Positions 16,615 to 60,042 of a stretch of 64,000 nucleotides of DNA are shown here, one piece after another (positions within the stretch are counted from its first letter, which is position 1; the number at the start of each line of letters is the position of its first letter). Source of the stretch: Prevotella sp. HUN102 (GTDB lineage Bacteria; Bacteroidota; Bacteroidia; Bacteroidales; Bacteroidaceae); NCBI RefSeq assembly GCF_000688375.1, contig NZ_JIAF01000004.1, positions 1,922,001 to 1,986,000 of the forward strand. The letters are read 5' to 3'. The notes under the pieces were generated by a model that searched no databases, had not been told where the DNA came from, and saw nothing but the letters and a program-made list of their open reading frames with translations. A program made the translations under genes and the position numbers.

Positions 16615-16705
16615 TTTTCAAATGACCGAAGAATGGAAAACAATCTTCGCAAGAATGCAATGCAAATGTGCGAAGAATAGAATGCAATCTTCGCACATTT
16701 GAAAA
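16615..16705. repeat. TGCGAAGA intergenic inverted repeat, copy 4 (two units, framed)
   Basis: Units at 16624-16651 and 16668-16696. The whole locus is bounded by a perfect inverted pair, TTTTCAAATG (16615-16624) and CATTTGAAAA (16696-16705), so it can fold as one large stem carrying two hairpins. It lies in the divergent gap between trpC and tRNA-Ser. Confidence 0.8.
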
Positions 16706-29093: not shown

Positions 29094-29150
29094 ACCTGAA
29101 TTTTGAATAAATCCAGAATCAGGAAACGACTTTATTGGAACGCCTTTGGA

Positions 29151-29259
29151 AAATATCACGTAATATTTCAGTAAATATCACGTAATATCTCGGCAAATAT
29201 CACGTAATATTTCAATAAATATCACGTAATATTTCGGCAAATATCACGTGATATTTATG
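29151..29259. repeat. Palindrome array A: five units, exact 22-bp period
   Basis: Units begin at 29151, 29173, 29195, 29217 and 29239. Each is AAATATCACGTAATATTTC plus a variable 3-base spacer (AGT, GGC, AAT, GGC). The core ATATCACGTAATAT is nearly self-complementary, and the last unit is a perfect palindrome (AAATATCACGTGATATTT). It lies between the 3' ends of convergent genes. Confidence 0.9.
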
Positions 29260-29296
29260 TGGAAATGATTTCTGATTCCCGAAAGGCGAAAATAAT

Positions 29297-32304: not shown

Positions 32305-32395
32305 CGTTTCTGCGAAGTATGTTTTCCAATCTTGCGAAGAACGCAATGCAATCTTCGCAAGAATGTTTTTCAAACTTGCAAAGAATGAAGCGTAA
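32305..32395. repeat. TGCGAAGA intergenic repeat, copy 6
   Basis: A central unit at 32332-32360 (TTGCGAAGAACG...TCTTCGCAA) is flanked by degenerate half-units at 32311 and 32372. It lies in the divergent gap between the TonB receptor and ABC-F genes. The rest of 32134-32730 is AT-rich with no gene. Confidence 0.72.
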
Positions 32396-51029: not shown

Positions 51030-52012
51030 AGTGTGTAGAGTCAACCAGCAAGTGCAAAATTACAACACATATTTGAAGAACTCGCACTTTGGTGTGGAAA
51101 AGTTTAATTTTTCCCTTGGTCTTTCATTCAATTTCTTCTGTATGGCCATAATCCTCTTGTCCGTATAGTTCTCAAAGGAATCCTTTTTAGGGATATATTG
51201 CCTGATTAACTTGTTTGTATTCTCAATGGCTCCCTTTTGCCATGAACAATATGGATCTGCAAAGTACACAGGCACGCCCAACCATTTCGTGATATCCTTA
51301 TGTGCGGCAAACTCAGGTCCGTTGTCAGTGGTAATGGTCTTCAGTCTGTCCTTGTATGGCAGCAGCAGTCTCCTGACTGCTTTTGCCAGAGGCTTCGACT
51401 GCTTCCCAAATGGCAGTTTCCGCATAAGCAACATATTGGTGGGTTTCTCCACCAGTGTGAGTATGGCGCGCTGGGCAGGGTCGACGATCAGGTCCATCTC
51501 AAAGTCTCCAAATCTCTTCCCGTCCACTTCCTTGTTTCTCTCATGGATGCGCACCCTGTCCTTGACAGGAAGATGCCCCCCTTTGGGTGATGCCTGTATT
51601 TCATCTTGTGTCTTGTGTGCCCGGCAAGTTTCCCTGTCGGGTCATCGTGGATGATGTTGTAGATGGACTGATGGGACACCCTTATCCCATCATTCACACG
51701 CAGATACCCCGATATTTGTCTTGGAGACCATTGGTCATTAACGATATATTCCTTGATTCTCCAGACCAATTCGTCGGAGAGCTTGGAGTTCGTCCCCGTT
51801 CTCTCTCTGCGCTGCATGGCCATGTCGTGCGCCTTCGTCCAGATATACTTTCCCGAGGGCGTGCTGTTGCGTTTGATTTCACGTGAGAGTGTTGCCTGAC
51901 TGATGCCGACGATGGCGGCAATTTCTTTTCTTGCGATTTTCTTTTGAAGTAAGGCGAAAATTTGCGACCTTTGCTCCGAGATTAATTGATGATACATTTA
52001 CAATACAAAGTT
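51030..52012. mobile_element. IS30-family insertion sequence, approximate limits
   Basis: About 1 kb filled by one broken IS30-type transposase on the minus strand. The ends are not sharply defined. An imperfect inverted pair (minus 5' end TTAACTAAC near 52010, and TCAACCAGC near 51039) is suggestive. No target duplication was confirmed. It lies between the TPR gene and a palindrome cluster. Confidence 0.75.
51060..51997 (-). pseudogene. IS30-family transposase, split by a -1 frame break at a G run
   Basis: The N-terminal part starts MYHQLISEQRSQIFALLQKK at 51997 and has the IS30 helix-turn-helix region (RKEIAAIVGISQATLSREIKRN). It runs on past KYRHHPKGG into a wrong frame. The catalytic DDE core continues in the -1 frame: FGDFEMDLIVDP (first Asp), TITTDNGPEFAAH (second Asp) and WQKGAIENTNKLIRQYIPKK (Glu). 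The break is at a six-G run (51577-51582), and one extra G restores the frame. The same spot reads A_AAG_GGG, a classical -1 slippery heptamer, so programmed frameshifting is an alternative. Confidence 0.88.
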
Positions 52013-52023
52013 AGTTAATCCTG

Positions 52024-52047
52024 GGGAGACTTCGGTCTCCCTTTTTT
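52024..52047 (+). terminator. UUCG-loop terminator-like hairpin, no upstream gene
   Basis: GGGAGAC-TTCG-GTCTCCC followed by TTTTTT, a textbook intrinsic terminator on the plus strand, but no plus-strand gene precedes it. It is just outside the IS30 element. Confidence 0.75.
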
Positions 52048-52074
52048 AATTTGTATTGCCGGTTGTTGCTTTTT

Positions 52075-52138
52075 CCTCGCCGAGAGATGCAGACAACCTC
52101 TCGCTACGCTTCGAGAACGTCTGCATCTCTCGGCGAGG
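52075..52138. repeat. 64-nt perfect-armed inverted repeat
   Basis: Two perfectly complementary 20-base arms (52075-52094 and 52119-52138, beginning CCTCGCCGAGAG) and a 24-base loop with its own TCTCG/CGAGA stem. A further GCACTT/AAGTGC hairpin is at 52152-52178. GC-rich compared with surroundings. Confidence 0.85.
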
Positions 52139-52241
52139 GCTACTCTTTTTTGCACTTCGATTTGGAATCTTCAAGTGCACAATCTTGGGTTTCGGGCTTT
52201 GCTGTAATGCCTTTATTTTGTCCCTATATTCCTTTCTCCAG

Positions 52242-52323
52242 AAAAGTATATACTTTTTCATTAAAAGGTATATACTTTTTTGATGGAAAGTATATACTTT
52301 TGGGGCAAAAAGTATATACCTTT
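52242..52323. repeat. Palindrome array B: four units, exact 22-bp period
   Basis: GTATATAC cores at 52246, 52268, 52290 and 52312, each inside an AAAGTATATACTTT-type palindrome and separated by different short spacers. The same 22-bp spacing as array A with an unrelated core. Positions 52330-52565 are without a visible gene. Confidence 0.9.
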
Positions 52324-52569
52324 TTCAAGATCCAAAGTAGATTTCACAACTAACTGATTATCAAACTCTTGCAAGATAACGAAAAGTCGGAATGAAACTG
52401 GATTTGAAAGGAAAAGGAAAGGGGCGGAAACGTGCGGCATTTCCCATTTCAAACACGAAAAAGACTATGGACGGCAGAGGCTCCGGAGAGGCGTATCACG
52501 AATATGCGCCCGATTCTTTCGGAAGTCTGTTTCTGTAAAAATATTTCACGCCCATTCTTAAAGAAAAAA

Positions 52570-55251: not shown

Positions 55252-55355
55252 ACGAGAGGACGAAGGGACGAGAAAACAAGAGGACAAGGAAACGAGAAGA
55301 CGAGGGAACGAGAAGACGAGGGAACGAGAGGACGAGGGGGCAAGGAAATAAGGAA
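55252..55355 (+). repeat. Octamer array 3 (8-bp period, 13 units)
   Basis: Successive ACGAGAGG, ACGAAGGG, ACGAGAAA, ACAAGAGG, ACAAGGAA and so on, to GCAAGGAA. Purine-only on this strand except for C in each unit. It lies about 50 bases upstream of the TonB receptor promoter. Confidence 0.85.
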
Positions 55356-55499
55356 ACTTGCCGTTTGTATTGTAAAGATAAATGCCCTTAAAACCCACCT
55401 TTATTTTCTCGTCATTTAGGTTTTTTCAGCCCCTGATACGAACAATGGAATTGGGATTTCGGCATTTTCAGTTGTAAAAGTCCGAAGACCGTTCTGCGT

Positions 55500-60000: not shown

Positions 60001-60042
60001 ATAAATAAAATACAGAATTATGAAAAAGTATATACTAAAAGT

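Follow-up and report, generated by a model that had tools for sequence, protein, structure and literature searches.

Arrays of palindromes with a 22-bp period in Prevotella sp. HUN102 and their association with HU-HIG genes

Array B and its genomic site

The stretch of DNA analysed here (the window) comprises 64 kb of the genome of Prevotella sp. HUN102 (G000), and array B is located on a 2.33-Mb contig of this genome, in a gap bordered by a transposase region on one side and, on the other, by a TonB-dependent receptor gene whose 3' end faces it. Array B is thus upstream with respect to the transposase gene and 3' with respect to the TonB gene, and neither neighbour is a rep gene, beside which plasmid or phage iterons would be expected. 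The transposase element spans positions 51060-52173 and is presumably IS30-like; its HTH part (ORF 51488-51997) and its rve part (ORF 51060-51554) overlap in different frames, and a perfect 20-bp inverted repeat with arms 24 nt apart is found at the IS end (52075-52138). A small putative ORF (52392-52538, about 48 aa, basic), read by eye, occupies part of the gap that separates array B from the TonB gene.

An origin of array B as part of the IS element was considered and rejected. The end region of the element recurs in at least 13 other places of the genome with 97-100% identity (91-93% in genome G010), and the 13 copies among the matches listed stop at 52173-52175, before the beginning of array B at 52242; therefore, the array is not carried by these IS copies.

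Array B consists of four units with an GTATATAC core, with arms rich in A on one side and in T on the other, which stretch the palindrome to about 16-18 bp (Table 1). As the sequence-only reading had stated, the cores are found at 52246, 52268, 52290 and 52312 (spacings of 22, 22 and 22 bp), and direct reading bears out that the spacers are unlike in sequence. The same reading had placed every core inside one 14-mer, which is correct for copies 1 and 3 (AAAGTATATACTTT) but not for copy 2 (AAGGTATATACTTT) or copy 4 (AAAGTATATACCTT); the lone palindrome that it had noticed, located at 60025-60038, differs from the 14-mer by two mismatches, is isolated and is probably a chance occurrence. In the 64 kb of the window, GTATATAC is found 5 times, whereas 0.38 occurrences would be expected, and 0 of 100 shuffles contained as many as five. 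Furthermore, equally spaced triples of one 8-bp palindrome (lag 12-40 bp) occur twice in the window, both corresponding to array B, and were absent from all 200 Markov-1 simulations.

Table 1. Arrays with a 22-bp period in the 64-kb window, and units and spacers of array B
Feature	Position	Strand	Basis or remark
Array with family 4 core (GCGAAGA...TCTTCGC half-sites), period 22 bp	16620..16700	.	Repeat scan; no cognate protein identified
Array A: five units, core ATATYACGTRATAT, period 22 bp	29147..29262	.	Same core upstream of HU-HIG gene G000:C4:1725167
Array with family 4 core, period 22 bp	32311..32387	.	Repeat scan; no cognate protein identified
Array B: four palindromic units, core GTATATAC, period 22 bp	52242..52323	.	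Lag-22 identity 0.73, dyad score 0.93
Array B unit 1: GAAAA-GTATATAC-TTTTT	52241..52258	.	Direct reading; perfect palindrome is the inner 16 bp
Array B unit 2: AAAAG-GTATATAC-TTTTT	52263..52280	.	Direct reading; single G/T mismatch adjoining the core
Array B unit 3: GGAAA-GTATATAC-TTTTG	52285..52302	.	Direct reading
Array B unit 4: AAAAA-GTATATAC-CTTTT	52307..52324	.	Direct reading; single A/C mismatch adjoining the core
Array B 4-nt spacers, all unlike	52259-52262, 52281-52284, 52303-52306	.	Direct reading; likewise in 268 pairs of adjacent units from 22-bp arrays

Other arrays in the window and in the genome

Array A, the second array of the sequence-only reading, is real and has a 22-bp period; its repeats were detected at 29151-29256. 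Two more 22-bp arrays, which the finding on array B in that reading does not mention, were recognized at 16629-16695 and 32311-32387; both have a third core (family 4), and the window holds in total four 22-bp arrays with three cores. A larger sample of the genome (464 kb), in which 20 segments of 20 kb were added to the window (seven of these segments being placed on sites known from searches), displayed five types of 22-bp core, namely GTATATAC, GTACGTAC, ATATYACGTRATAT, the GCGAAGA/TCTTCGC type and AAAGCATAGCTTT, of which the first two may form one core family and the fourth, family 4, is the commonest. The dyad score in this sample averaged 0.73 at lag 22 (14 arrays) versus 0.45 at other lags (48 arrays). 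Lag 22 leads the array counts only modestly (14, followed by 11, 8, 8 and 7 for lags 16, 15, 24 and 21); thus, it is the palindromes, and not the count, that set this lag apart. The sample also contains recurrent repeats without palindromes, with lengths of 14-16, 21 and 24 bp, and the window has a non-palindromic tandem repeat of 16 bp at 55252-55357.

Regarding their location, 10 of 16 arrays examined were outside any ORF kept by a crude caller, and the other 6 overlap only ORFs of 80-117 aa, which we judged to be spurious. Copy number ranges from 2 to about 21 units; the array with most units, a core-A array (L018:2314-2805), has about 21 nearly identical ones and is likely a recent expansion. 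No common end was found in the 400-bp flanks of 20 arrays of this genome: two core-A arrays share 108 nt with 75% identity, inverted and close to the array (left flank of L425, right flank of L430), and the other matches were short (21-82 nt) and at inconsistent distances.

The 22-bp spacing across genomes and the constraint on units

In a collection of 84,980 genomes, a scan for GTATATAC triplets at 16-28 bp provided a sample of at least 120 stretches. Among the matches listed, 274 of 356 successive intervals are of 22 bp, followed by 23 bp (35), 21 bp (14) and 24 bp (12), with the consideration that several MAGs yield many rows, so that the rows of the scan are not independent. The excess of 22-bp spacing that the sequence-only reading required of a wide search is therefore found for the GTATATAC core. 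The same pattern in 42 viral contigs gave a broad distribution without a sharp 22-bp peak (16 of 108 intervals). From the 120 stretches listed, 103 were assigned by record title to Bacteroidales or near kin and the remaining 17, including two from other Bacteroidota, were dropped; a few of the dropped stretches from outside Bacteroidota also have a 22-bp interval, such as those of Treponema (L063) and Spiroplasma (L097). The 22-bp spacing is concentrated in Bacteroidales.

Some arrays also change their core in register: in L155, GTATATAC is followed by GTGTACAC after 23 bp, and in L103, from Porphyromonas pasteri, GTATATAC gives way to GTTATATTAC after 22 bp. The comparison of 268 neighbouring unit pairs revealed identities of 0.78-0.88 up to four bases beyond the core on both sides and of 0.52-0.59 in the middle of the spacer; as the units had been searched by their GTATATAC core, constraint can be read from the flanks only. 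Intrinsic curvature caused by A-tracts was set aside as a common cause of the arrays, given that several cores have no A-tracts (e.g., TTGGACA...TGTCCAA).

The conservation of one dispersed site was assessed at recA, behind which the HUN102 genome carries an array. This array was not found in 29 other recA loci, although different, weak repeats at lag 22 are present in one of them (L214); thus, the recA site is not conserved and turns over between species. Such turnover, together with the dispersed and mostly intergenic location of the arrays and their copy number of 2 to about 21, is compatible with selfish or neutral minisatellites, that is, short tandem repeats located in gaps, which would grow by slippage or be carried by miniature transposons, with an incidental link to HU genes. 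The 108-nt inverted flank shared by two core-A arrays points in the same direction, as do the BrickBuilt elements of Porphyromonas gingivalis, 23-nt repeats reported at 19 loci (PMC4596501). On the other hand, minisatellites would not account for palindromic units going with period 22, for cores that vary while the period holds, or for spacers that diverge while the palindromes are kept; the flanks of the 20 arrays mentioned above had no common end, their other matches being of 21-82 nt at inconsistent distances; and neither the position of arrays upstream of HU-HIG genes nor the joint divergence of core and protein, both described below, would be expected. We regard this origin as distinctly unlikely.

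Palindromes of this kind could also fold within transcripts, as rows of hairpins that stop transcription or protect mRNA. In accordance with this, GTATATAC arrays occupy convergent gaps in 23 of 66 cases versus 39 of 198 background gaps (p 0.018); the preference is weak, and the background includes the gaps with arrays. This count left out 18 arrays inside a crude ORF of at least 100 aa, arrays at locus edges, and the 17 of 120 loci that were dropped. Against this role, among 91 arrays with at least two G-T or A-C mismatches, 49 hold both kinds, array B included, which would speak for double-stranded DNA over an RNA hairpin, even though the arrays with a single kind exceed the number expected by independence (42 of 91 versus 17.7). 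The totals of G-T and A-C mismatches (216 versus 239) do not bear on the question, as the orientation of a locus is arbitrary and near-equal totals are expected anyway. In addition, the stems are short and AT-rich, and Rfam at gathering thresholds matched one tRNA only in the window. A function of the arrays as RNA is thus considered very unlikely.

Association of the arrays with HU-HIG genes

Among 182 proteins flanking GTATATAC arrays, the biggest cluster was HU-like (four proteins plus a pair) and was assigned by Pfam to HU-HIG (PF18291); no other family among these 182 proteins clustered above two. Since 489 non-flanking proteins of the same loci also clustered (up to eight members), this first HU-HIG clustering alone proves nothing, and the reverse test was run, starting from genes found by profile. 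The HU-HIG genes initially spotted next to GTATATAC arrays were six, and for two of them (L117, L148) the array is situated 3' of the gene.

Another reading of array B, as an operator row of an ordinary local regulator for the TonB-receptor or transposase gene, has in its favour that the array sits in the gap between both genes and upstream of the latter. However, it is the 3' side of the TonB gene that faces this gap, the IS-end copies described above stop before the array, and the proteins beside arrays of the same core form no cluster above two other than HU-HIG; hence, we consider a local operator very unlikely.

The HU-HIG set was obtained by profile searches of 28 genomes and included 77 loci among the matches listed, reduced to 76 because one had no ORF. 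PF18291 had 18 matches in the HUN102 genome (17 of 18 above the cut-off), and six relatives of the same genus had 6 to 30 HU-HIG or HU-type matches. Under a strict measure (a palindromic array of three units at 21-23 bp, no more than 600 bp from the gene), an array was found upstream of 26 of 76 HU-HIG genes, 1 of 26 ECF sigma genes and 0 of 29 recA genes (Fisher p 1.5e-6), and downstream of 4 of 76, 2 of 26 and 2 of 29, respectively (Fisher p 0.72). The rate is raised upstream and not downstream, so that the excess is restricted to the upstream side. The ECF sigma controls came from the first 13 genomes, leaving out four of 30 loci that were too short, and one of 30 recA loci was left out as well. 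A relaxed measure, which accepts shorter arrays, was applied to 75 HU-HIG genes after dropping nine that had entered via arrays or known orthology and a duplicate locus, and gave upstream arrays at 32 of 75 versus 0 of 55 controls. More than half of the HU-HIG genes have no array, either on any side (46 of 76, strict measure) or upstream (43 of 75, relaxed measure).

The first HU-HIG set, with an upstream array at 20 of 47 genes by the strict measure, was taken from 13 genomes of which nine (G000, G003, G026 and six others) were already known to hold GTATATAC arrays. In the second set, formed by 15 relatives not chosen for arrays, 6 of 29 HU-HIG genes had an upstream array versus 1 of 55 controls (p 0.006), at a lower rate than in the first set. 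The check proposed by the sequence-only reading, on whether core types go with particular regulators, was positive by the strict upstream counts given above and by the matching of core and protein described below.

Other features of these genes were recorded as well. A promoter-like TAnnTTTG motif was present in the last 200 bp upstream of 18 of 39 HU-HIG genes with arrays and of 12 of 26 ECF sigma genes, with no difference between them; it is found below the array in the four ortholog genes described in the next section. Two HU-HIG genes of the HUN102 genome with identical scores and identical upstream arrays (L269 and L270; G000:C1:390810 and 430067) apparently correspond to a recent duplication of gene plus array. 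As for family 4, none of the 18 PF18291 loci of this genome includes a HU-HIG gene with such an array upstream, and the sole one of these loci that adjoins a family 4 array is a HU gene of low score, which has the array on its downstream side.

Core types and their HU-HIG partners

Arrays of 22 bp with a GTAYRTAC core, which covers GTATATAC and GTACGTAC, are present in only 3 of 60 genomes (G000, G003 and G026), and exactly these three genomes possess full-length orthologs (at least 65% identity) of the HU-HIG protein whose gene is at C4:2257170 (p 2.9e-5). The next matches are a truncated remnant in G017 (74% over 66 residues), followed by paralogs at 39%. Since these four genomes are related, the events that enter the co-occurrence test are not independent. 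In G017 (L396 and L181), the truncated HU-HIG remnant is accompanied by a degenerate array at a contig end, a possible case of joint decay of protein and sites.

A 22-bp array is located upstream of all four ortholog genes, with GTACGTAC twice in G000, GTATATAC three times in G003:C23, an GTACTATC-type core in G003:C18, and GGAGGTAC in G026; the latter core recurs in a dispersed array of G026, beside GTATATAC units. The same pairing of HU-HIG gene and array was observed in P. histicola (L146) and P. vespertina (L158, whose genome is G003). Further, a HU-HIG gene of Porphyromonas pasteri (G064) has an GTAATATAAC array upstream, and elsewhere in that genome GTAATATAAC continues an GTATATAC array. 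Regarding array A, its core is found in at least 8 places of the HUN102 genome, one of them directly upstream of the HU-HIG gene at C4:1725167, and in none of 59 relatives; the closest relatives of this protein in the set (70-76% identity) carry other cores, which suggests that this pair of core and protein has recently changed.

The type of core tracks the relatedness of the HU-HIG proteins. In a comparison of 39 genes, the mean best 14-mer core match was 14.0 for pairs with at least 90% protein identity (2 pairs), 10.9 at 60-90% (18 pairs), 10.0 at 40-60% (19 pairs) and 9.4 below 40% (702 pairs), and 0 of 2000 permutations attained the value observed for pairs of 45-97% identity (32 pairs); nine of the 39 genes had entered via arrays or orthology, and several of the high-identity pairs are among five orthologs.

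The most likely partner of the GTAYRTAC core (GTATATAC/GTACGTAC) in the HUN102 genome is P0034, a HU-HIG protein of 150 aa (G000:C4:2257170-2257619). Its sequence had no match among PDB chains at E 0.01. The AlphaFold model of the monomer (mean pLDDT 85, pTM 0.63) predicts a HU/IHF fold: the best Foldseek match was 4fmr, a Bacteroides DNA-binding protein (E 2e-4), followed with weaker E-values by HU and IHF chains, several of them in complex with DNA. Judging from this fold, the protein would be a putative DNA-binding dimer. By profile, the partner protein at L022:7170-7622 obtained a PF18291 score of 73.3 bits (cut-off 26.2), and the core-A partner protein scores below the TIGR01201 (HU_rel) cut-off.

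Proposed function of the arrays and its significance

Considering the arrays, their period and palindromes, the upstream association, the co-occurrence and the co-divergence together, array B probably belongs to a class of Bacteroidales arrays whose cores are read by HU-HIG paralogs, with regulation of the paralogs' own genes and dispersed loading sites. The proposal of the sequence-only reading, one class of array with interchangeable cores and perhaps a dimeric protein for each, gains support from the co-divergence of core and protein and from the co-occurrence among 60 genomes, with binding as the inferred step. In the mechanism that we envisage, palindromes of about 16-18 bp would be repeated every 22 bp, corresponding to two helical turns, with a core that varies from array to array, and different HU-HIG paralogs, putative DNA-binding proteins of the HU/IHF fold, would read different core types. 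Both HU and IHF are active as dimers, on DNA at least about 20 bp long. Given the 22-bp repeat of a palindrome, each unit may take one HU-HIG dimer, with successive dimers facing almost the same side of the DNA. An array just upstream of many HU-HIG genes suggests that the protein most likely autoregulates, and dispersed intergenic arrays such as array B could serve as further loading sites, where HU-HIG dimers would lie side by side on the DNA. Candidate roles of these dispersed arrays are local gene control, insulation and chromosome organisation.

A narrower alternative would have HU-HIG proteins bind upstream arrays merely to tune their own genes, the dispersed arrays being functionless leftovers or accidental copies. 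The upstream enrichment, which is the strongest signal of this study, and the lack of conservation of the dispersed recA site would fit this alternative. Nevertheless, dispersed places prevail in the HUN102 genome for two cores (5 of 6 places for GTAYRTAC and, among the matches listed, 7 of 8 for core A), and palindrome bases outside the search key are more alike than spacer bases; therefore, we hold it to be unlikely.

In its most extended form, the preferred reading of arrays as HU-HIG loading sites becomes a multi-channel nucleoid code, in which each specific paralog would have a private palindrome in 22-bp rows, both upstream of its gene and dispersed, and duplicated paralogs would gain new cores and arrays; this form is put forward tentatively, as a possibility that falls somewhat short of probable. 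If true, one cell would contain several separate HU-like filaments or chromosome-marking systems. HU-HIG is a large family in Bacteroidales, and the arrays constitute candidate target sequences for single paralogs, which makes binding, autoregulation and effects on the chromosome testable in common bacteria of the gut and mouth. Furthermore, should every paralog indeed possess a separate site, HU-HIG would represent a HU-fold family evolving many specificities, with protein and site changing together, of use for studies on the evolution of DNA recognition.

Comparison with known systems

The partner proteins belong by profile to the HU-HIG clade (PF18291; NCBIfam TIGR01201 HU_rel) of the HU/IHF superfamily, and P0034 also by its predicted fold. 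HU is mainly a packaging protein of low specificity and IHF is specific for single sites, whereas here paralogs pair with distinct periodic arrays of palindromes. The expansion of HU-HIG was reportedly described by Burroughs and colleagues in 2017, who are said to have proposed a recognition of invading DNA. Our literature search, which mostly covered papers outside subscription journals, found no paper on the DNA targets of HU-HIG, and no description of palindrome arrays with a 22-bp period in this bacterial group or of a link between such arrays and HU-HIG.

The ParB-parS, MatP-matS and Noc-NBS systems consist of a dedicated DNA-binding protein and dispersed palindromic sites, with one protein and one type of site each; unlike them, the arrays described here involve several paralogs, several cores and phased rows. 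REP elements and the GTAG- or CGTC-tagged palindromes are dispersed intergenic sequences of 20-40 bp with the tag at one end. These arrays resemble them as dispersed intergenic palindromes and are set apart by that definition, of which, to our knowledge, a fixed 22-bp period is no part.

Among the repeats reported in the same bacterial group, PINSR of Prevotella intermedia and P. nigrescens is also intergenic and dispersed; it is a repeat of 188 bp, as described in the available part of its report, and not an array of palindromes at 22 bp (PMC4755523). The closest likeness is to BrickBuilt, intergenic tandem repeats with 1 to 22.8 copies per locus and predicted long stem loops, one of which, BrickBuilt_14, adjoins a PF00216 HU-type gene in the table of that paper (PMC4596501). 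The words "palindrom" and "hairpin" are absent from the main text of the paper, in the portion available (PMC4596501). BrickBuilt was defined there as a MITE, with a leader, a tail and terminal inverted repeats around a single repeat sequence (PMC4596501), whereas our arrays display several cores and, in 20 cases, no common end. The arrays do not have one repeat sequence for all loci, as five core types, two of them possibly of one family, share one period in the HUN102 sample. BrickBuilt may represent the same class of arrays, seen in one species.
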